A DNA stretch of 64,000 nt from Paraflavitalea soli (GTDB lineage: Bacteria; Bacteroidota; Bacteroidia; Chitinophagales; Chitinophagaceae). The stretch is from positions 5,460,546 to 5,524,545 of the forward strand of contig NZ_CP032157.1 of NCBI RefSeq assembly GCF_003555545.1, given 5' to 3'. A program made the translations under genes and the position numbers. The notes below the pieces were generated by a model. The model worked only from the letters and a program-made list of their open reading frames with translations. It was not told the origin of the DNA and ran no database searches. Of the stretch, positions 45,196-55,048 are shown piece by piece (the first letter of the stretch is position 1; every line of letters begins with the position of its first letter).

Positions 45196-46077
45196 ATGAC
45201 GCCTGTAAAATTTACCTTATTCCTCCTGCTTACCGGCATTTTCTGTTCCGGCTGTTTTAGCCGGTTCACCATGACCAACCGGGAGGTACGGAAATATTAC
45301 GAACATAAACCGGTGAAGCCTACCTACTTCACCATCCGCAACGATTCTGTATCCCTTTTCTGTGCCACCACAGGCGCCGACACCCTTCCTCCCCTCCTGA
45401 TGATCCACGGCGCCCCGGGCGCCTGGTATGGAAGCCGCAACCTGCTAGATGATTCGTTGCTGCAGCAGCATTTTCACATAATAGCCGTCGACCGCCTGGG
45501 ATACAACAAATCCCGGTTTAAAGGCAAACGCAAAGCAGTGACCTCCATCACCACCCAGGCTGTGGCCATTCATGAAGCCATGCGGCTTAACCGCTCCCAT
45601 AAACCCGGTGTGGTAATGGGAAGTTCTTATGGGGCGCCCATTGCGGGCAAGATGGCCCTATTATACCCTCAGGAATACAACCACCTGGTGATGCTGGCGG
45701 CCGCCATCGATCCTGACCAGGAAAAGTTCTGGTGGTTTCATCCCTTTATCAATGGCGGACCGCCTTACTGGTTGTTTCCCCGCTTCATCAAGAGCGCCAC
45801 CGACGAGAAGTTTTCGCATGTGGAAGAGCTGCGCAAGCTGCTGCCGGAGTGGAAAAACCTTAAAGTACCTGTGACGGTGGTGCAGGGAGGTGAGGACGAT
45901 ATTATCGAGCCGACTAACCTCGATTTTGCCAAACAAATACTGCAGGGAAAGCTGGCCAACTTCATCTACCTGCCTAATGCTGGTCACCTCATCAGGCTGC
46001 AACGACCTGATATTGTGCGCGCTATCCTGCTCAATCCATTGCCCGGCGCAAAAGGCAATACAAGTATTGGCAAATGA
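45196..46077 (+). CDS. Alpha/beta hydrolase lipoprotein
   Basis: 293 residues. Signal with lipobox-like CSGC (Cys20); then a hydrolase fold: LLMIHGAPGAW (oxyanion region), nucleophile elbow GSSYGAP, acid in GGEDDIIEP and catalytic His in PNAGHLIRL. Probably anchored on the periplasmic face. Substrate unknown. Confidence 0.87.
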   Translation: MTPVKFTLFLLLTGIFCSGCFSRFTMTNREVRKYYEHKPVKPTYFTIRNDSVSLFCATTGADTLPPLLMIHGAPGAWYGSRNLLDDSLLQQHFHIIAVDRLGYNKSRFKGKRKAVTSITTQAVAIHEAMRLNRSHKPGVVMGSSYGAPIAGKMALLYPQEYNHLVMLAAAIDPDQEKFWWFHPFINGGPPYWLFPRFIKSATDEKFSHVEELRKLLPEWKNLKVPVTVVQGGEDDIIEPTNLDFAKQILQGKLANFIYLPNAGHLIRLQRPDIVRAILLNPLPGAKGNTSIGK

Positions 46078-46263
46078 TGAAGGCCCGGTAGCATGATCCT
46101 TTACAGCTTCGGCAGGCCGTCCCGCCGCCCCTGGCACAAACGCTTGTTTGCTGGTTTTTATGGAATTAGCTAAAATTTTACAATAAAAAGTCCCCCCCAT
46201 CCTAAAAAAATGTTTTCTTTGCGGTGTTAAAAGCATTGAGTTAAAGAATATTCACCATTAGAA

Positions 46264-46398
46264 ATGCATAAAAATCTCACCATAATACTCGCTGATGTAG
46301 TAGCGCAAAGCGTTATTACTATAGTGCGTGGGGTTTTTGCTGTACAGCTCCGTACAGATTTTGTTAGTCGCCCGGTCCCCGTTAGGGTGCGACGTTGA
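46264..46398 (+). CDS. Candidate arginine leader peptide (44 codons)
   Basis: ATG at 46264, TGA at 46396-46398. The 44-residue product has seven Arg: at 22, 30 and 36, then a run at the end (R-P-V-P-V-R-V-R-R), including two consecutive Arg codons just before the stop. The ORF sits alone in the 437-bp gap upstream of the arginine operon, with hairpins overlapping and following the Arg codons. This is the layout of an attenuation leader sensing arginyl-tRNA. No homologue is known to me; a TTTCTTTG -7-like box lies at 46214. Confidence 0.7.
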   Translation: MHKNLTIILADVVAQSVITIVRGVFAVQLRTDFVSRPVPVRVRR

Positions 46399-46492
46399 TA
46401 CCATTTTACCATAGTATCCCCTTTGTCATGGAACTATGCTCCCGTAACCCGGGATTCGTGTCTTTCGCAGTAATCAGTCTGCTGCATTTTTT
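46367..46492 (+). promoter_or_regulatory. Candidate transcription attenuator of the arginine operon
   Basis: In order: GTCGC/GCGAC (46367-46393) overlapping the Arg codons; GATAC/GTATC (46397-46418); TCCCG/CGGGA (46440-46454); and a weak GCAG/CTGC stem (46467-46485) followed by six T residues at 46487-46492. The last stem is only 4 bp, so terminator function is uncertain; pairing among the segments needs folding. Confidence 0.5.
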
Positions 46493-46514
46493 CACATTAT
46501 AGTCTTGTCAAACA

Positions 46515-47243
46515 ATGGAAACGCAACAACAGTTCCAGATACTTATAGCCAATGAAACCCATCTTGACTTCGCACAGATCATTTGCGACGAGATGCTTTC
46601 CTCTGCCAAAGCACGGGGTACCGGTATCGCCAAGCGATCACCGGAATACATCCAGCAAAAAATGCGGGAAGGCAAAGCAGTGATCGCTTTCAACCAGGAT
46701 GGCATATGGGCCGGTTTTTGTTATATCGAGACCTGGAGCCATGGCGAATACGTAGCCAATTCAGGCCTTATCGTAGCCCCTGCATTCAGAAAGGGAGGAC
46801 TCGCCAAAGCCATCAAGAAAAAGATCTTCGAACTGAGCCGTAAGCTGTATCCCGAATCCAAAATATTCGGACTTACTACAGGTCTGGCTGTTATGAAGAT
46901 CAATAGTGAACTGGGCTATGAACCTGTTACCTATTCCGAGCTTACACAGGATGACGCCTTCTGGGCAGGTTGTAAAAGCTGTGTAAACTATGAGATCCTC
47001 ATGAGCAAAGAACGGAAGAACTGTATGTGTACCGCCATGCTCTACGATCCCAAGGATCACTACGAGCCGGAAGAGACCAAACAATTCTTCGAGGAGAAAA
47101 AAGGCATCCTGGAACGCCTGCTGCGTATCAAGCAGTGGAAATTCCTGCAGCCTTTCCTGAAGAAAGACAAGGAAGACAACAGCACCAAAATGGTACAGGC
47201 CAGCAAGCGGAGATCACTGCTGCAGTACTTTTTTAACTTGTGA
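46515..47243 (+). CDS. GNAT N-acyltransferase heading the arginine operon (N-acylglutamate synthase candidate)
   Basis: 242 residues. GNAT fold with acetyl-CoA loop region (LIVAPAFRKGGLAKAIKKKIF) after AVIAFNQDGIWAGFCYIETW, plus a lysine-rich C-terminal extension. No argJ or classical argA lies in the cluster; this position and family are those of the Bacteroidota enzyme thought to acylate glutamate (acetyl or succinyl) as the first step. Motif-level evidence supports GNAT; the specific reaction is from context. Confidence 0.8.
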   Translation: METQQQFQILIANETHLDFAQIICDEMLSSAKARGTGIAKRSPEYIQQKMREGKAVIAFNQDGIWAGFCYIETWSHGEYVANSGLIVAPAFRKGGLAKAIKKKIFELSRKLYPESKIFGLTTGLAVMKINSELGYEPVTYSELTQDDAFWAGCKSCVNYEILMSKERKNCMCTAMLYDPKDHYEPEETKQFFEEKKGILERLLRIKQWKFLQPFLKKDKEDNSTKMVQASKRRSLLQYFFNL

Positions 47244-47315: not shown

Positions 47316-48512
47316 ATGAAAAAAATAGTTTTAGGATTCAGCGGCGGACTCGACACTTCCTATTGTGTTAAATACCTGGGTGAAGACAAAGGGTATGAAG
47401 TACACAGCATCATCGTTAATACCGGTGGCTTCAGCGAAGAAGAGTTGAAACAGATAGAGGCCCATGCCTATAACCTGGGCGTTAAGACGCATACTACTGT
47501 TAATGCCGTGAAGTCTTATTACGACCGCATTATCAAGTACCTGATCTATGGCAACGTATTAAAGAACAATACCTACCCATTGAGTGTAAGTGCTGAAAGA
47601 CTGAGCCAGGCTGTACATATTGCCGAGCACGTGCAAAAGCTGAAAGCGGATGCAGTAGCCCATGGCAGCACCGGCGCCGGCAACGACCAGGTACGTTTTG
47701 ATATGATCTTCCACATCATGATCCCCGGTGTTGAGATCATTACTCCTATCCGCGACCTCAAGCTTAGCCGCGAAGCTGAGATCGAATACCTCAAAGGCAA
47801 GGGTGTGAACATGAACTTTGCCAAAGCTATGTATTCTATCAATAAAGGTCTGTGGGGTACCAGTGTTGGCGGAAAAGAAACTTTGTCTTCCAAAGGCATG
47901 TTGCCCGAAGAAGCATGGCCTACCCAGGTTACCCAAACCGGTAGCCAGGAAGTAAAACTGAGCTTTGTAAAAGGTGAACTGAAAGCGGTGGATGGCAAAT
48001 CATTCGATCATCCCACCGAAGCCATACAATACCTGCAAACCATTGCCGGACCTTATGGCGTAGGCCGTGATATCCACGTGGGCGATACCATCATTGGTAT
48101 TAAAGGCCGGGTAGGCTTTGAAGCTGCTGCCCCTATGGTGATCCTGAAAGCACACCACGCCCTGGAAAAACACGTGCTCACCAAATGGCAGCTGAACTGG
48201 AAGGACCAACTGGCACAGTTCTACGGCAACTGGCTGCACGAAGGACAGATCATGGACCCTGTGATGCGTGATATTGAAGCCTACCTGGAGAATGCCCAGC
48301 AAACAGTCACAGGCGATGTATTTATACAATTGATGCCCTACCGTTTCCAGGTCATCGGCATCGAGTCTCCGTACGATCTCATGAGCAGCAAGTTTGGTAA
48401 ATACGGTGAAATGAATACCGGCTTTACCGGTGATGATGTACGTGGATTCAGCAAGATATTCGGCAACCAGACTTCGATCTGGACCGCTGTGAAGGAAGAG
48501 AATAAGAAGTAG
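47316..48512 (+). CDS. argG: Argininosuccinate synthase
   Basis: 398 residues. Condenses citrulline and aspartate with ATP. N-terminal PP-loop GFSGGLDTSYC, then AHGSTGAGNDQVRFD, WGTSVGGKETL and the C-terminal FTGDDVRGFSKIFGNQ. Lies 72 bp after the GNAT gene; its stop codon is the start of a 7-bp repeat tract (48511-48545). Confidence 0.95.
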   Translation: MKKIVLGFSGGLDTSYCVKYLGEDKGYEVHSIIVNTGGFSEEELKQIEAHAYNLGVKTHTTVNAVKSYYDRIIKYLIYGNVLKNNTYPLSVSAERLSQAVHIAEHVQKLKADAVAHGSTGAGNDQVRFDMIFHIMIPGVEIITPIRDLKLSREAEIEYLKGKGVNMNFAKAMYSINKGLWGTSVGGKETLSSKGMLPEEAWPTQVTQTGSQEVKLSFVKGELKAVDGKSFDHPTEAIQYLQTIAGPYGVGRDIHVGDTIIGIKGRVGFEAAAPMVILKAHHALEKHVLTKWQLNWKDQLAQFYGNWLHEGQIMDPVMRDIEAYLENAQQTVTGDVFIQLMPYRFQVIGIESPYDLMSSKFGKYGEMNTGFTGDDVRGFSKIFGNQTSIWTAVKEENKK

Positions 48513-48545
48513 AATACAGAATACAGGAGTCAGAATACAGAAGAA
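48511..48545. repeat. 7-bp tandem tract after argG, unit AGAATAC
   Basis: Five heptads in register, three identical AGAATAC, beginning at the second base of the argG stop codon, exactly as the similar tract does at gldB (31717). Confidence 0.85.
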
Positions 48546-48592
48546 AATGCAGGCAGAATGAATTGGGGTATTTGGCTCAAAAAGCAAGCAGT

Positions 48593-49576
48593 ATGAGCAA
48601 GAACATTAAAGTAGGTATCGTTGGAGGAGCAGGTTATACCGGTGGAGAACTGATCCGTTTATTGGTTAATCACCCGTATGTAGCTGTTTCTTTTATTCAT
48701 AGCCGCAGCAATGCAGGCAAACCCGTGTATGCCGTTCATGAAGACCTGGTTGGTGAAACCGATTGGCAATTCACAGGAGAATTAAGCCAGGATGTAGATG
48801 TGGTATTTCTGTGTGTAGGTCATGGCGAAGCAAAGAAGTTCCTTGCAGAGAACACTTTCGATGCCAGGATCAAGATCATTGACCTGTCGCAGGACTTCAG
48901 GTTGGCTCAAAACTCGAAGCTCGGAGCCCGGAGCTTTGTTTATGGATTACCCGAACTGAACAGGGAAGCCATCCGCACAGCCTCTAATGTGGCCAATCCT
49001 GGCTGCTTTGCTACGGCTGTTCAACTGGGTCTATTGCCCCTGGCCAAAGCTGGCTTGCTCGACCAGGTTTATTCCACCGGCATCACCGGTTCTACGGGTG
49101 CAGGACAAAGCCTCAGCGCGACTTCTCATTTTAGCTGGAGGGCCAATAATATCCAGGCTTACAAAACATTGAATCACCAGCACATGAACGAAATAGGTGA
49201 GTCACTGTTACAATTACAGCCCAAGAGCCAGATCGATGTGAGCTTTGTGCCCTGGAGAGGCGATTTCACCCGCGGTATTTTCATCAGTTCACAACTCGAT
49301 TGCGACCTTACTGAGCAGGAGTTGGTTAGCTTGTATACTGATTTTTACGATGGTCATCCATTTACCACCGTAAGCAAACAACCGATCTTTTTAAAACAGG
49401 CCGTCAATACCAACAAGTGTATTATTCAACTGGAAAAAGTAGGCACCAAACTGGTGGTGCATTCTATAATAGATAATTTACTGAAAGGCGCTTCCGGTCA
49501 GGCTGTGCAGAATATGAACCTGTTGTTTGGGCTCGAGGAGTGCGCTGGCCTGAAGCTGAAGGCTAACTATTTTTAA
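48593..49576 (+). CDS. argC: N-acyl-gamma-glutamyl-phosphate reductase
   Basis: 327 residues from ATG 48593; the frame upstream overlaps the repeat-rich spacer. NADPH-binding GIVGGAGYTGGELIRLL, catalytic Cys in VANPGCFATAVQLGLLPL, GITGSTGAG, and HQHMNEI. Oddity: between IIDLSQDFRL and YGLPELNR there is AQNSKLGARSF, encoded by a 7-bp tandem tract (48905-48932) matching the intergenic one just downstream of the gene. Confidence 0.95.
   Translation: MSKNIKVGIVGGAGYTGGELIRLLVNHPYVAVSFIHSRSNAGKPVYAVHEDLVGETDWQFTGELSQDVDVVFLCVGHGEAKKFLAENTFDARIKIIDLSQDFRLAQNSKLGARSFVYGLPELNREAIRTASNVANPGCFATAVQLGLLPLAKAGLLDQVYSTGITGSTGAGQSLSATSHFSWRANNIQAYKTLNHQHMNEIGESLLQLQPKSQIDVSFVPWRGDFTRGIFISSQLDCDLTEQELVSLYTDFYDGHPFTTVSKQPIFLKQAVNTNKCIIQLEKVGTKLVVHSIIDNLLKGASGQAVQNMNLLFGLEECAGLKLKANYF
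48905..48932 (+). repeat. 7-bp tandem tract inside argC, unit GCTCGAA
   Basis: Four heptads in register (GCTCAAA, ACTCGAA, GCTCGGA, GCCCGGA) within the argC frame. The word CTCGAAGCTCG is shared exactly with the spacer tract at 49582-49651. Confidence 0.75.
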
Positions 49577-49581
49577 ATACC

Positions 49582-49651
49582 AGCTACGAGCTGTGAGCCA
49601 CGAGCAGCGAGCCTTTTGCTCGAAGCTCATAGCTCGAAGCTCGCAGCTCAA
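49582..49651. repeat. Ten-unit 7-bp tandem tract between argC and argD
   Basis: Ten heptads in unbroken register: five AGCNNNN units, then five NGCTCNN units of opposite sense. The two halves are partly self-complementary, so RNA could fold into a long hairpin in the argC-argD spacer. Confidence 0.9.
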
Positions 49652-49662
49652 ACTAGTATTCC

Positions 49663-50811
49663 ATGAAGTTATTTGACGTTTATCCCATCAACGACATCAC
49701 CATTACAAAGGCCAAAGGCTCTTATGTATGGGATGCAGCCGGTGAACAATACCTTGACCTGTATGGCGGTCATGCCGTAATATCTATTGGCCATACGCAT
49801 CCTCATTACGTACAGCGAGTTACCGATCAGCTCAATAAAGTAGGTTTTTATTCCAACTCTATCCGTATTCCCTTGCAGGAAGAACTGGCTGCCAAGCTGG
49901 GCAAGGTATCCGGCAAAGAAGACTATCAACTGTTCCTGTGTAATTCTGGCGCAGAAGCCAATGAGAACGCGCTGAAACTGGCCTCCTTCTTCAATGGCCG
50001 TAAAAAGATCATCGCTTTCACAAAAGGCTTTCACGGCAGGACTTCCCTGGCCGTAGCAGCTACTGATAATCCATCTATTGTAGCGCCGGTAAACCAAACC
50101 AACAATGTTATATTCCTGCCTTTCAATGATGAGGAAGCACTGCAAGCCTGCTTCAGAGCACAGGGCAGTGAGATATCTTCCGTGATCATTGAAGGTATAC
50201 AAGGTGTTGGCGGCATCAATGTAGCTTCCGTTCCTTTCCTCCAACAGATCCGTCACCTTTGCGATGAGCATGGCGCCGTATTCATTGCCGACAGCGTGCA
50301 GTGCGGCTATGGCAGAACCGGCAAATTCTTTTCCCACGATTTCGCCGGCGTAAATGCCGATATCTATACCATGGCCAAAGGCATGGGCAATGGCTTCCCT
50401 GTAGCAGGTATTATCATCGCCCCGCATATTCAGGCCAAACACTCCATGCTCGGTACTACTTTTGGTGGTAACCACCTGGCATGCGCCGCTGCCCTGGCTG
50501 TGCTGGAAGTGATAGAACAGGAAAACCTGCTCAACAACGCAGCCGAAGTAGGCAACTACATCATGCAGCAACTGAAAGGAATTTCTGAATTGAAGAATGT
50601 AAGAGGCCGTGGCCTGATGATCGGGTTTGATGTGCCCGAAGAGCTGAAAGACCTGAAGAAGAACCTGCTGTGGAAACACAAGATATTTACCGGCGAAGCA
50701 AAACCCAATGTGATCCGCCTATTGCCTTCCCTGGCTTTGCGTAAGAAAGATGCCAATGAGTTTATAGAAGCCGTAAAGGAAGAGATCGCAGCATTGGTGC
50801 CCACACACTAG
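49663..50811 (+). CDS. argD: N-acylornithine aminotransferase
   Basis: 382 residues, class III PLP enzyme. YVWDAAGEQYLDLYGGHAVISIGHTHP, FLCNSGAEANENALKLAS, FTKGFHGRT, PLP Asp in IADSVQCGYGRTGKFF, Schiff-base Lys in YTMAKGMGNGFP and GTTFGGNHLACAAALAVL. Converts the N-acyl glutamate semialdehyde to N-acylornithine. Position inside the operon makes ArgD the clear call. Confidence 0.93.
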   Translation: MKLFDVYPINDITITKAKGSYVWDAAGEQYLDLYGGHAVISIGHTHPHYVQRVTDQLNKVGFYSNSIRIPLQEELAAKLGKVSGKEDYQLFLCNSGAEANENALKLASFFNGRKKIIAFTKGFHGRTSLAVAATDNPSIVAPVNQTNNVIFLPFNDEEALQACFRAQGSEISSVIIEGIQGVGGINVASVPFLQQIRHLCDEHGAVFIADSVQCGYGRTGKFFSHDFAGVNADIYTMAKGMGNGFPVAGIIIAPHIQAKHSMLGTTFGGNHLACAAALAVLEVIEQENLLNNAAEVGNYIMQQLKGISELKNVRGRGLMIGFDVPEELKDLKKNLLWKHKIFTGEAKPNVIRLLPSLALRKKDANEFIEAVKEEIAALVPTH

Positions 50812-50878
50812 TTTCTACGTGAGAAGTGAAATCACTTCTCATTATTCATAATTATTCATAAACACGTTCTTCACGGAA

Positions 50879-51874
50879 ATGAGAAACTTTATTTCTGTTC
50901 ACGATGTTTCCAACATCAATGACCTCGTAGCAAAGGCTTTAGTCTATAAAGCAGACCCGCTAAAAGACAAATCCCTTGGTAAGCACAAAAGAATAGGGCT
51001 ATTGTTCCTGAACCCCAGTATGCGCACCCGTCTCAGCACACAGATAGCGGCGCAAAACCTGGGCATGGAAGCCATCGTGTTCAATGTAGGTCAGGAAGGT
51101 TGGGCACTTGAATTTGAAGAAGAGGCCATTATGAGTGGCAGCACGGTCGAGCACGTTAAAGATGCTGCCCCTATTATGGGTAAGTACTTCGATATACTGG
51201 CCATCCGTACCTTCCCCTCCTTGAAGAACCGTGATGATGATTACAGCGAACTGTTCATCAAGCAGTTTATTAAATACGCCGGCATCCCCGTAGTGAGCCT
51301 GGAAAGCGCCACCCTGCATCCTTTGCAGAGTTTAACAGATATTATCACCATCCAGGAGAATTCCATCATCCCCATGAATGTTGAACGCGGCCCTTTGTGG
51401 ACACAGATGGAAAGACCTAAGATCGTACTCACCTGGGCACCCCACGTGAAGCCTTTGCCCCAATGTGTGGCCAATAGCTTTTCCCAATGGGTAAACGCCT
51501 GGGGGCAGGCTGATTTTGTGATCACCCACCCCGAAGATTATGAGCTGGATACCCAGTTTACCAACGGCGCTACCATCACACATGATCAGAATGAAGCCCT
51601 GAAGGATGCTGACTTTGTATACGTGAAGAACTGGAGCACCTTCAACCATGAATATGGCCGCATTTATACCAACGATCCTGGCTGGATGATGACCAACGAA
51701 AAGCTGGCCCTCACCAATAATGCTAAAGTAATGCACTGCCTGCCCGTAAGAAGGAACGTAGAGCTGAGCGATGAGATACTGGATGGTCCCAACAGCATTG
51801 TGACCCAGGAGGCCTCCAACAGGGTATGGGCAGCACAGGCAGTATTGGCAGAGATATTAAAAGCAAACCATTAA
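50879..51874 (+). CDS. argF': N-acylornithine carbamoyltransferase (ArgF' type)
   Basis: 331 residues. Carbamoyl phosphate site SMRTRLST (47-54) and the HCLPVRRN region show a transcarbamylase; HPLQSLTDIITI and the overall text match the acetyl-/succinylornithine branch rather than ordinary ArgF. Residue 90 (GSTVEHV) is Val where, from memory, the Bacteroides succinylornithine enzyme has Pro90 and the Xanthomonas acetylornithine enzyme Glu92. A non-acidic residue there favours N-succinylornithine. The product is N-acylcitrulline. Confidence 0.92.
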   Translation: MRNFISVHDVSNINDLVAKALVYKADPLKDKSLGKHKRIGLLFLNPSMRTRLSTQIAAQNLGMEAIVFNVGQEGWALEFEEEAIMSGSTVEHVKDAAPIMGKYFDILAIRTFPSLKNRDDDYSELFIKQFIKYAGIPVVSLESATLHPLQSLTDIITIQENSIIPMNVERGPLWTQMERPKIVLTWAPHVKPLPQCVANSFSQWVNAWGQADFVITHPEDYELDTQFTNGATITHDQNEALKDADFVYVKNWSTFNHEYGRIYTNDPGWMMTNEKLALTNNAKVMHCLPVRRNVELSDEILDGPNSIVTQEASNRVWAAQAVLAEILKANH

Positions 51875-51883
51875 ACAGGGATC

Positions 51884-52672
51884 TTGGAAAAGTTATTTGT
51901 AGTCAAGATTGGCGGTAATATTATCGATGATGATGCCAAATTAGCTGCATTCCTCATTTCCTTTGCCGCCCTCAAAGGCAAAAAGATATTGGTACATGGC
52001 GGTGGCAAACTGGCCACCCGCCTGGCAGAAGAAATGAAGGTACCACAGCAAATGGTGGACGGAAGAAGGATCACCGATGCCGAGACCCTCAAGATCGTAA
52101 CCATGGTCTACGCCGGTTACATCAATAAAAATATAGTAGCCCGGTTACAGGCCCACGGCAGCAATGCCATTGGTCTGAGTGGTGCAGATGGCAATGCCAT
52201 TCAGGCACACAAGCGGGTACATCCCACCCTGGATTATGGATTTGTAGGTGATGTTGACAGCGTAAACGCCCCCCTCCTGAAATCCTTGCTGGACCAGGAT
52301 CTGGCCATTGTACTGGCGCCTATTACCCACGACAAACAAGGTTTGCTACTCAATACCAATGCAGACACCATTGCCCAGGAAGCCGCCAAAGGATTGAGCG
52401 GACATTATGACGTAGAGCTGATCTATTCTTTTGAGAAGAGCGGCGTATTGCTGGATGCCAACGACGACAGCACCGTGATAGCTTCCATTACACCCGCTTA
52501 TTACCAGCAATTAAAAGCAGCACAAAAGATATTTGCAGGCATGATCCCCAAGCTGGATAATGCCTTTGCAGCATTGAACAGTGGCGTAAAGAAAGTGATC
52601 ATCGGAAAAGCAGAGCAGCTTCAACAATTAATTGCCGGATCATCCGGCACAACCATTATCAATGAGCAGTGA
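51884..52672 (+). CDS. argB: N-acylglutamate kinase (TTG start)
   Basis: 262 residues. Amino-acid kinase fold: VVKIGGNIID at the N-terminus, LVHGGGKLATRLAEEM, MVYAGYINKNIVARLQ and NTNADTIAQEAAKGL. It starts at TTG 51884: an in-frame TAA (the argF' stop, 51872) lies 9 bp upstream and no ATG fits the N-terminus. ACAGGGA gives a ribosome-binding site. Overlaps argE by 11 bp. Confidence 0.93.
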   Translation: MEKLFVVKIGGNIIDDDAKLAAFLISFAALKGKKILVHGGGKLATRLAEEMKVPQQMVDGRRITDAETLKIVTMVYAGYINKNIVARLQAHGSNAIGLSGADGNAIQAHKRVHPTLDYGFVGDVDSVNAPLLKSLLDQDLAIVLAPITHDKQGLLLNTNADTIAQEAAKGLSGHYDVELIYSFEKSGVLLDANDDSTVIASITPAYYQQLKAAQKIFAGMIPKLDNAFAALNSGVKKVIIGKAEQLQQLIAGSSGTTIINEQ

Positions 52673-53753
52673 TCAGATCACCATATTACAGGACCAGGCC
52701 ATAGCCTTGCTGAAACAACTGATTGCCACGCCATCATTCAGCAAAGAAGAAGACCAAACAGCCGCTATACTGGAGCAATTCCTGCAGCAAAACAATATCA
52801 AAGCCAACAGGCATCTGCACAATGTATGGGCTGTCAATAAGCATTTTGATCCGGCCAAACGCACCATCATCCTCAATTCGCACCACGACACCGTAAAGCC
52901 CAATAAGGGATATACCCTTGATCCATTTATGCCGATAGAAAAGGAGGGTAAATTATTTGGCCTCGGCAGCAATGATGCGGGAGGTCCCCTGGTATCACTC
53001 ATTACTACCTTTCTGTATTACAACGATAGAACAGACCTGAAATACAACCTGCTGCTGGTAGCTTCTTCAGAAGAAGAGATATCCGGCCGCAATGGTATAG
53101 AGGCCCTGCTACCTGCATTGGCCGAAAACCAACCCCATATAGTGATCGATAGCGGCATCGTTGGCGAACCTACACAGATGCAGATGGCGGTAGCCGAGCG
53201 CGGCCTCATGGTGCTGGATTGCCTCTCCCATGGCAAGGCTGGTCATGCTGCCCGCGAAGAAGGGGAGAATGCCATTTATAAAGCGCTGGCCGATATAGAG
53301 TGGTTTCGCAATTACCGATTCTCCAAAGTATCCGATCTGCTGGGGCCCGTTAAAATGAGCGTTACTGTCATTGAAACCGACAACAAGGCTCATAATGTAG
53401 TGCCCGCCCAGTGTAAATTTGTGGTAGATGTGCGCGTGAATGAGTTGTATACTTTTGAAGAAGTGCTGGAAGTGATCCGCACACAGGTACAATGTGAAGT
53501 TCAACCCAGAAGCACCAGGCTTCGCTCTACTTCCATTGCATTGGATCACCCCCTTACCCGGGCAGGCATCGCACTCAACAGATCTTATTACGGCTCCCCT
53601 ACTACCTCCGACAAAGCCCTCATGCCTTTCCAGACCCTCAAGATGGGCCCGGGCGATTCGGCCCGCAGCCATACAGCCGATGAGTTTATATATGTGGAAG
53701 AGATCAGAGAAGGAATCCAATTATATATCCAACTTTTAAACCAGGTATTATGA
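52662..53753 (+). CDS. argE: N-acylcitrulline/ornithine deacylase (M20 family)
   Basis: 363 residues from ATG 52662, inside the end of argB. M20 metallopeptidase: metal His/Asp in SHHDTVKP and GSNDAGGP, the Glu pair in ASSEEEISG, VGEPT, dimerisation region HAAREEGENAIYK and C-terminal metal His in ARSHTADEFI. In this linear pathway it removes the acyl group from acylcitrulline. Overlaps argH by 4 bp (ATGA). Confidence 0.9.
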   Translation: MSSDQITILQDQAIALLKQLIATPSFSKEEDQTAAILEQFLQQNNIKANRHLHNVWAVNKHFDPAKRTIILNSHHDTVKPNKGYTLDPFMPIEKEGKLFGLGSNDAGGPLVSLITTFLYYNDRTDLKYNLLLVASSEEEISGRNGIEALLPALAENQPHIVIDSGIVGEPTQMQMAVAERGLMVLDCLSHGKAGHAAREEGENAIYKALADIEWFRNYRFSKVSDLLGPVKMSVTVIETDNKAHNVVPAQCKFVVDVRVNELYTFEEVLEVIRTQVQCEVQPRSTRLRSTSIALDHPLTRAGIALNRSYYGSPTTSDKALMPFQTLKMGPGDSARSHTADEFIYVEEIREGIQLYIQLLNQVL

Positions 53754-55048
53754 AATTGTGGCAAAAAGAAAACACCTCCGTATCTGCGCTGATAGAAAAG
53801 TTTACCGTCGGGCGCGACAAGGAGTTCGACATTCTGCTGGCGAAGTATGATGTGGAAGGCTCTATTGCTCATGTAACCATGCTGGGTGAAGTAGGGTTGA
53901 TGAGTAAAGAAGATGCAGCGCTGGCTGTAAAAGGCCTCCAAGAAATACAACAGGAGATTGCCGATGGACAATTTGCGATTGCCGATGGCGTAGAAGATGT
54001 GCACTCCCAGGTGGAGTTGCTGCTTACCCAGCGCATTGGCGATGCCGGTAAAATGATCCATAGCGGCCGCAGCCGCAATGACCAGGTAGCTGTTGACATT
54101 AAGCTCTACCTCCGCGCTGAAATATTGGCCGTGAAGGAAGAAGTAAAGCAATTGTTCGGCCTCCTGATCGTCCAAAGCGAAAAATTCAAACAACACTTAC
54201 TACCGGGATACACCCATCTCCAGATCGCCATGCCCTCATCGTTTGGTCTATGGTTAGGCGCCTACGCTGAAGGTTTGGTCGACGACCTGGAACTGTTGGC
54301 CGCAGCCTATGCTGTAGCCAACAAGAATCCGCTGGGCAGCGGCGCCGGCTATGGTTCTTCTTTCCCCCTCAACCGTACCCGCACCACCGAACTGCTGCAT
54401 TTTGGTGCCCTGAATGCCAATTCAGTATATGCCCAGATGAGCCGGGGTAAAACAGAGCGCGTGGTAGCTACCGGTATCAGCGCCGTGGCAGCAACCCTCA
54501 GTCGCCTGGCCATGGATTGCTGCCTGTATATCAACCAGAATTTCGGGTTTATCTCCTTCCCTGCCGAGCTCACTACCGGCAGCAGCATCATGCCCCATAA
54601 AAAGAACCCCGATGTGTTTGAGCTCATCAGGGCCAAATGCAACCGTATACAAGCTACTCCCAATGAACTTACCCTCCTGGTCAATAACCTGCCATCCGGT
54701 TACCACCGCGATCTGCAGCTCACCAAGGAGATCCTGTTCCCGGCTATTGAGACCCTGAAGGATTGCCTGCAAATGACCCGCCTCATGTTGAGCCGTATGT
54801 CCGTAACGGAAAACATCCTGGACGATGCCAAATACAAATACCTGTTTAGTGTAGAAGCCGTTAATGAACTCGTCAACAAGGGTATTCCCTTCCGCGATGC
54901 TTACAAGCAGGTGGGCAATGATATTGAGCAGGGTACTTTCAATTTCGACTACAAAAAGCAACTACACCATACCCATGAGGGAAGCATCGGCAACCTGTAC
55001 AATGACTACATTGTTGCAGCGATGGAGAAAGTGAACGGCAAGTTTTGA
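53750..55048 (+). CDS. argH: Argininosuccinate lyase
   Basis: 432 residues. Fumarase/aspartase superfamily: HSGRSRNDQVAVDIKLYLR, GYTHLQIAMPSSFGLWL, NPLGSGAGYGSSFPLNR and the signature TTGSSIMPHKKNPDVFEL with its catalytic Ser. Splits argininosuccinate to arginine and fumarate. Last gene of the operon, followed by a strong terminator. Confidence 0.95.
   Translation: MKLWQKENTSVSALIEKFTVGRDKEFDILLAKYDVEGSIAHVTMLGEVGLMSKEDAALAVKGLQEIQQEIADGQFAIADGVEDVHSQVELLLTQRIGDAGKMIHSGRSRNDQVAVDIKLYLRAEILAVKEEVKQLFGLLIVQSEKFKQHLLPGYTHLQIAMPSSFGLWLGAYAEGLVDDLELLAAAYAVANKNPLGSGAGYGSSFPLNRTRTTELLHFGALNANSVYAQMSRGKTERVVATGISAVAATLSRLAMDCCLYINQNFGFISFPAELTTGSSIMPHKKNPDVFELIRAKCNRIQATPNELTLLVNNLPSGYHRDLQLTKEILFPAIETLKDCLQMTRLMLSRMSVTENILDDAKYKYLFSVEAVNELVNKGIPFRDAYKQVGNDIEQGTFNFDYKKQLHHTHEGSIGNLYNDYIVAAMEKVNGKF

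Follow-up and report, generated by a model that had tools for sequence, protein, structure and literature searches.

Upstream of the arginine biosynthetic operon of Paraflavitalea soli lies a short open reading frame (ORF) that, judging from sequence comparison, is likely to be the leader cistron of a ribosome-mediated, arginine-specific attenuator of this operon. Its translation, its specificity for Arg, its RNA helices and its link to a GNAT-argG operon are borne out by comparison among relatives. Stalling on the Arg codons would be what switches the operon on, with transcription termination, translation of the first gene or Rho as the presumed output. The window referred to below is the whole stretch of 64,000 nt that was analysed, and positions are counted from its first letter (Table 1). 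The ORF of 44 codons is present as a preliminary description of this DNA had given it and encodes the peptide MHKNLTIILADVVAQSVITIVRGVFAVQLRTDFVSRPVPVRVRR. Three of the final four codons are indeed for Arg; the total, however, is six Arg codons (CGT three times, CGC, AGG and CGA), and not the seven claimed there. The ORF was also rightly placed alone upstream of the arginine operon, whose order is GNAT-argG-argC-argD-argF'-argB-argE-argH.

Table 1. Features of the leader region and of the operon that follows it, in window positions.
Feature	Position	Strand	Basis
Candidate promoter element TTTCTTTG, 5/6 match by eye to TAnnTTTG	46214..46221	+	sequence
Leader ORF, 44 codons, C-terminal ...SRPVPVRVRR-TGA	ATG 46264 to TGA 46398	+	translation of the window
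P0, 5' strand AAAAATCTCAC, leader codons 3-6	46270..46280	+	pairs with 46328-46338 in the fold of 46228-46410
P0, 3' strand GTGGGGTTTTT, codons 22-25, including part of Arg codon 22	46328..46338	+	same fold and comparison
T1, in-ORF hairpin CTGTAC-AGCTCC-GTACAG, then ATTTTG	46340..46363 (stem 46340-46357)	+	scan, covariation
Arg-rich tail RPVPVRVRR, proposed sensor codons, CGA CGT before the stop	46369..46395	+	codon alignments, Arg-tail scan
Candidate alternative GATAC/GTATC helix, overlapping M and containing part of the stop codon	46397-46401 with 46414-46418	+	complementarity in the window
M hairpin CATAGTATCC...GGAACTATG	46410..46438	+	minimum free energy (MFE) fold
Small hairpin TCCCG...CGGGA	46440..46454	+	MFE fold only
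T2, terminator-like hairpin GCAGTAATCAGTCTGCTGC and ATTTTTT (six-pair stem 46467-46485; T6 46487-46492), 5' of the first gene	46467..46492	+	scan
First operon gene, GNAT-type acetyltransferase	46515..47243	+	Pfam GNAT matches below cut-offs, best 19.6 against 20.7 bits
argG-argC-argD-argF' (N-acetylornithine carbamoyltransferase-like)-argB-argE-argH	47316..55048	+	NCBIfam

To find comparable loci, the GNAT protein was searched in 99 relatives, 294 genomes of the family, 198 genomes of the phylum and the species collection. Upstream regions were read in the fetched loci, which are part of the matches (for example, 30 loci and 35 stretches of one search and the best 30 of another). To pass the Arg-tail test, an ORF had to span at least 15 codons, contain at least three Arg among the final 12, and stop 75-160 nt upstream of the first operon gene. 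It was applied to 169 loci, the window included; four duplicates, seven second gene copies and L164 were left out. The preliminary description had called for a check on the conservation of the ORF and its Arg codons in relatives. Such an ORF was found at 135 of the 169 loci; shuffled sequences gave 5.05 ± 1.8, the reverse strand gave 14, and the seven second gene copies gave none. When two Arg sufficed, the count rose to 153 of 169 (25.3 in shuffles, 32 on the reverse strand, three of the seven second copies), which leaves 16 loci that fail even this looser test. The tail is enriched 24-fold over shuffles in Arg and at most 6-fold in any other residue. Conservation extends beyond the family: among 23 loci from the same class or phylum, 11 pass at three Arg and 15 at two, and three of the seven loci from other families of the order (L051, L053-L058) pass the Arg-tail test. 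The second gene copies come from a diverged GNAT gene found in several genomes of the family (L059-L065), which has no three-Arg leader. Five class-level relatives (L187, L188, L189, L190 and L191) carry the GNAT gene with no Arg-tailed leader by this test.

The leaders are not of one kind. A set of 152 upstream regions (164 loci less 11 duplicates and one short upstream region) was sorted with profile HMMs into type A (70, including the window), type B (33), type C (11) and 38 others, seven of which are the second gene copies. The peptide pattern is M.KN...RGVF...RPVPVRVRR in type A, HTKQFAFHAPITSGVYAVGFDVFTF.RPRR in type B (consensus MxNILTHTKQFAFHAPITSGVYAVGFDVFTFSRPRR) and ...RRPRI in type C. 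The type A HMM matches the P. soli genome once (E = 1.1e-19). Across 195 genomes of the family, type A was found in 31, P. soli included, and type B in 27, with one match per genome and no genome holding both. Of the 58 matches, 57 were fetched, and the GNAT gene was present at all 57 loci. On a tree of the GNAT proteins the leader types are strongly clustered, requiring 12 changes as against 44 when shuffled. This tree comprises 117 of 145 rows, since proteins shorter than 150 aa through clipping by the fetched stretch were left out. L136 was likewise left out of alignment A1, L136 and L111 of A3/R1, and L081, L083 and L085, which have in-frame insertions, of A2 and the codon analysis. No leader start was called in L164, and alignment A5 holds 36 of the 69 type A peptides.

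Evidence for translation comes from the spacing of landmarks, which are DNA motifs chosen without regard to frame. The three pairs used were found in 64, 68 and 32 of the 152 regions. The distance from ATG to GTGGG is 55, 58, 61 or 64 nt, multiples of three apart in 64/64. The distance from GTGGG to CGACGTTGA varies by multiples of three in 68/68, three leaders with long insertions included, and the distance from CATAC to TGA in type B does so in 32/32. Because the spacing changes only in multiples of three, the leader ORF is, on these comparative grounds, translated. The other two frames hold stops in 68 and 59 of the 69 type A ORFs. Such frame-preserving spacing can reveal leader cistrons in Bacteroidota even where the peptides have diverged.

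What is selected differs between the types. By its substitution pattern the type B peptide itself is under selection (pN 0.149, pS 0.650, pN/pS 0.23, against 2.1 and 2.3 in the shifted frames). In type A, pN/pS is 0.78, against 0.76 and 0.87 in the shifted frames, with no peptide-level selection overall; selection there is, by the same measure, at the level of the RNA, except in tail codons such as those for Arg-Pro, which are synonymously variable. The two Arg codons directly before the type A stop are nearly fixed, with the penultimate CGA in 66/66 and the final CGT in 65/66 aligned leaders. CGA is rare in the window (8 of 189 Arg codons in 15 genes), yet it is the codon kept in every aligned type A leader. 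In the part of their paper considered here (PMC1183508), Elf and Ehrenberg argue that a sensitive response requires particular ones of the synonymous codons to be used as regulatory codons, and that these tend to be rare.

The RNA around the type A leader was examined by folding, scanning and comparison. The fold of positions 46228-46410 is moderately better than shuffles (z -1.83), while that of 46390-46530 is not (z -0.99). Because single-sequence folding is weak, the case rests on relatives. A simple scan of 46070-46530 recovered two terminator-like sites (mean 0.4 per shuffle), namely T1 and T2, which agree with the hairpins and T6 run of the preliminary description. With G-U pairs counted, P0 forms a run of 11 pairs in 54 of 66 type A leaders and occurs in three matched sequence classes; the mean run is 10.7 for own pairs and 8.5 between classes, relatedness being uncorrected in this comparison. 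The T1 helix is 95% paired over 63 distinct type A sequences, and each of its six pairs has changed on both sides at least once. Taken jointly, the two helices specified for the covariation test that covered T1 are paired in 93% of cells, compared with 19-47% when slid, and 73 cells have changed on both sides, compared with 19.3 in shuffles. The count of type A pairs changed on both sides was reached by 21 of 500 shuffles. Counts of further pair types did not exceed shuffles for either structure, 215 (type A) and 244 (type B) of 500 shuffles being as high. A terminator-like hairpin within the ORF is found in 52 of 69 type A leaders (8.1 in shuffles), and T1 may be a pause site or a translation-sensitive terminator, active as long as the leader is not being translated. 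Just upstream of T1 lies the conserved Arg codon 22, which does not fit a simple scheme.

Downstream of the type A stop, conservation is of another sort. An ATAG...CTAT arrangement follows the stop in 33/69 leaders, compared with 1.8 in mononucleotide shuffles, and this is conserved sequence rather than covariation. A stem of at least six pairs starting 8-30 nt after the stop occurs in 37/69, a modest excess over the 27.4 ± 3.4 of shuffles. A stem of that size starting at the stop itself was rejected as a general type A feature (15/69 against 17.1 in shuffles). For a selection of 18 type A sequences, RNAalifold predicted no structure after the stop. The T6 hairpin had been put forward as the attenuator, but it does not generalize: the GCAGT-type hairpin of T2 is found in just seven of 69 type A leaders, all close relatives (L001-L005, L067 and L151, the window being one of the seven). 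Terminator-like hairpins of any kind after the stop were counted in 17/69 type A, 0/33 type B and 0/11 type C leaders, and a classic terminator is therefore not the output in general.

In type B, the stop codon itself lies inside a nearly invariant hairpin, P1 (C-UGA-CAGG with CCUGUCAG), and the stop is UGA in 33/33. P1 rests on complementarity rather than covariation, because seven of its eight pairs never vary; the remaining pair goes from CG to UA in 2/32. The P1 loop pairs with a GGU-containing site about 30 nt (by eye) before the first gene, forming a pseudoknot. The named type B structure is paired in 93.8% of cells, compared with 25-45% when slid; both sides have changed in seven pairs, of which three belong to the pseudoknot. 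In 20 sequences that had been held out, though these are related to the training set, the two variable pseudoknot pairs form in 34/40 cells, compared with 26.2 after swapping partners (0/1000 as high); the pattern left seven elements unresolved. A model of P1 matches 57 of 195 genomes of the family, once each. Among 30 P1 loci that were fetched, 29 have the GNAT gene, and the last is truncated by the contig end just past the apparent start of that gene. In all 65 elements with the gene downstream, at least one of the nine codons before the UGA of P1, read in the frame that this stop ends, is for Arg; 63 of these 65 frames have two or more there, compared with 0 and 2 for the other frames. Counting back from the type B stop, the first Arg codon is met most often at the fourth position (18/32); given the usual sizes of the ribosome footprint, a stall there would leave P1 nearly free. 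Ten leaders (L011, L012, L014, L027, L029, L035, L038, L098, L123 and L133) share the Arg tail and the RNA after the stop, although their N-terminal peptides are unrelated; as far as they are in the gene tree, they fall among or beside the type B rows. The Arg tail and P1 are thus the core, to which the conserved peptide was added or from which it was lost.

The first gene of the operon is inferred to encode N-acetylglutamate synthase. The argC, argB and argH products score above the curated NCBIfam cut-off, and the remaining arg genes are best matches under it. In 138 of 139 loci with at least 1400 nt of downstream sequence, argG lies 3' of the GNAT gene on the same strand. Upstream of the leader, the motif TAnnTTTG, which we take to be the consensus of the Bacteroidota -7 promoter element, is perfect (6/6) in 29 of 30 type B leaders tested, its commonest end being 27 nt before the leader start. 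Type A leaders have it perfect in 7% and at 5/6 or better in 96%, compared with 57% in shuffles. This test covered 68/69 type A, 30/33 type B and 10/11 type C leaders. In the textbook case, arginine-responsive control of arginine genes is the task of ArgR/AhrC. A protein of the ArgR family was found neither in the P. soli genome nor in any of 98 genomes of the family, while 9 of 14 control genomes matched. The proposed leader attenuator offers an answer to how arginine synthesis may be controlled in a family where ArgR was not found.

The attenuator could work as follows. When charged Arg-tRNA is scarce, the ribosome would slow at the Arg codons packed before the UGA, and its position would decide whether RNA structures that start at or just after the stop can form. 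A ribosome at the stop would mask these structures, while one stalled on the Arg codons would leave them free, and the operon would be on. In type A, T1 with its U run, beside P0, probably makes RNA polymerase pause or abort when no ribosome comes behind it, and the switch itself may be made up of M, T2 and the GATAC/GTATC alternative. M begins 12 nt 3' of the stop codon, so that a ribosome standing there would scarcely cover it. In type B, the switch would be P1, the stop-codon hairpin, with its loop paired near the first gene; by the logic proposed for speF orf34 of Salmonella (see below), Arg starvation would let P1 and the pseudoknot form and turn the operon on. Since no terminator-like hairpin lies between the type B stop and the gene, the output there is probably translation of the first gene or Rho. 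The preliminary description had proposed control of the operon by leader-peptide attenuation. That part is probably right, with a translated Arg leader kept in the family and part of the class and no ArgR found in the 98 genomes, but the simple layout known from his and trp is probably not, because the deeply conserved terminator-like hairpin of type A lies within the ORF and the type B structure after the stop has no U run. A bolder proposal, which we put forward tentatively and with some doubt, is that of a new class of amino-acid attenuator serving as the main arginine control in ArgR-less Bacteroidota. Type B would then hold its stop codon in a pseudoknotted switch without an intrinsic terminator, with a nascent chain that tunes the stall, and the divergent type A would use a ribosome-sensitive terminator inside the ORF. 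This compact system joins codon sensing with a stop-codon pseudoknot and, in one branch, with a nascent peptide under selection, all of which can be compared along a single gene tree.

Classic transcription attenuation that ends at T2, as first proposed for this DNA, is unlikely. The window does have the six-pair stem and T6, six close relatives have a similar element, and the P. soli genome uses just this layout for his. There, the leader MNIFTHIHHHHHTYPSR (L281, 5' of hisG, G000:C1:8266176) is followed by a strong terminator, GGGCTTACC...GGTAAGCCC and T5. However, terminator-like hairpins after the stop are not general among the arg leaders, no convincing antiterminator of T2 was seen by eye, and conservation is far stronger for T1, within the ORF. 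A sensor built from the nascent peptide has rather less to recommend it. The leader chain and free arginine in the exit tunnel would together arrest the ribosome, and arginine would be read instead of the charging of Arg-tRNA. TnaC and the arginine attenuator peptide (AAP) of fungi, the latter eukaryotic, are conserved nascent peptides with metabolite-dependent stalling and may be a parallel for the type B peptide. This peptide is conserved despite highly variable synonymous sites, its conserved part would occupy the exit tunnel at the time when the ribosome reads the Arg codons, and its UGA stop is constant. Against this stand the unrelated N-terminal peptides that occur with the same RNA and Arg tail, and selection in type A that acts on the RNA and not on the peptide.

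It is very improbable that the type B element is a ligand-binding riboswitch laid over the leader stop, with the ORF secondary. Many of its nucleotides are invariant, some of them unpaired (GUGAA after P1), and together with the pseudoknot they look aptamer-like. Yet P1 occurs only once per genome, next to the GNAT gene in nearly every fetched locus, and the Arg-tailed frame always ends in the element's own stop codon; no case of a riboswitch without the Arg-tailed ORF was found among the 65 P1 elements. The window, which is type A, gave no Rfam match at the gathering score, and positions 46080-46560 gave none at E up to 5, T-box and riboswitches included. The least credible reading, for which we see hardly any chance, is that the ORF has nothing to do with arginine and encodes a small protein or serves reinitiation. 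Short ORFs upstream of genes are common and the type B peptide is conserved, but the enrichment in the tail is specific for Arg. Reinitiation was rejected on account of the gap between stop and gene, which is too long: the typed leaders have 81-141 nt there, whereas leader genes of Bacteroidetes proposed to reinitiate peak at 11-14 nt in the part of PMC4833913 drawn on here.

The attenuator proposed here has several known counterparts. In the portion of PMC6386406 consulted, it was proposed and tested for Salmonella speF orf34 that a ribosome standing at the UGA stop, when arginine is high, keeps a hairpin downstream of the stop from forming, while one paused at Arg codons, when arginine is low, allows it. 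The likeness lies in a short ORF whose Arg codons sense arginine, and the layout of type B matches that model. However, speF controls ornithine decarboxylase, its outputs are Rho, the ribosome-binding site and RNase G, and in that portion neither a stop-codon pseudoknot nor a terminator-like hairpin within the ORF is described. The peptides differ as well, since that of speF orf34 is DUF2618 and the arg leader peptide has no DUF2618 match. No Pfam match at E up to 1 was obtained for the leader of the window and those of two relatives, and no NCBIfam model matched the leaders tested. Attenuators of the his and trp type also place a leader ORF with a run of cognate codons 5' of a biosynthetic operon, but the His copy of P. 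soli has a strong terminator after its stop and most of the arg leaders examined do not. In S. aureus, the passages of PMC13009471 used here describe rbfL, a uORF whose rare Arg codons sense arginine limitation; this is likewise sensing of arginine shortage by the Arg codons of a uORF, but it occludes the adjacent ribosome-binding site of a biofilm regulator and does not control a biosynthetic operon. A transcriptome study of F. psychrophilum (PMC9723704) mentions, in the part seen, leader-peptide attenuation before amino-acid operons, with the amino acids unnamed there. Among the titles listed in a search of open-licence PMC papers, none was about an Arg leader of an arg biosynthetic operon in Bacteroidota. 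Leader-peptide attenuation and Arg-sensing uORFs such as speF and rbfL are thus already known, while for the arg-leader architectures reported here no description was found in the literature searched.

Some leaders depart from their type in ways that keep the frame. L081, L083 and L085 have in-frame insertions just 5' of the final VRR and stop, with frame and VRR end kept, and the insertion of L081 is a repeated Arg-Pro-rich block (YGRPAP.ANDF). Among the type C leaders, L017, L025 and L026 contain an HPSL.GV stretch (HHTMMSV in L026) that is coded by a hairpin and then a T-rich stretch. The scan for hairpins within the ORF found 3/11 type C leaders, against 0.5 in shuffles, which suggests a hairpin within the type C ORF akin to T1 of type A.
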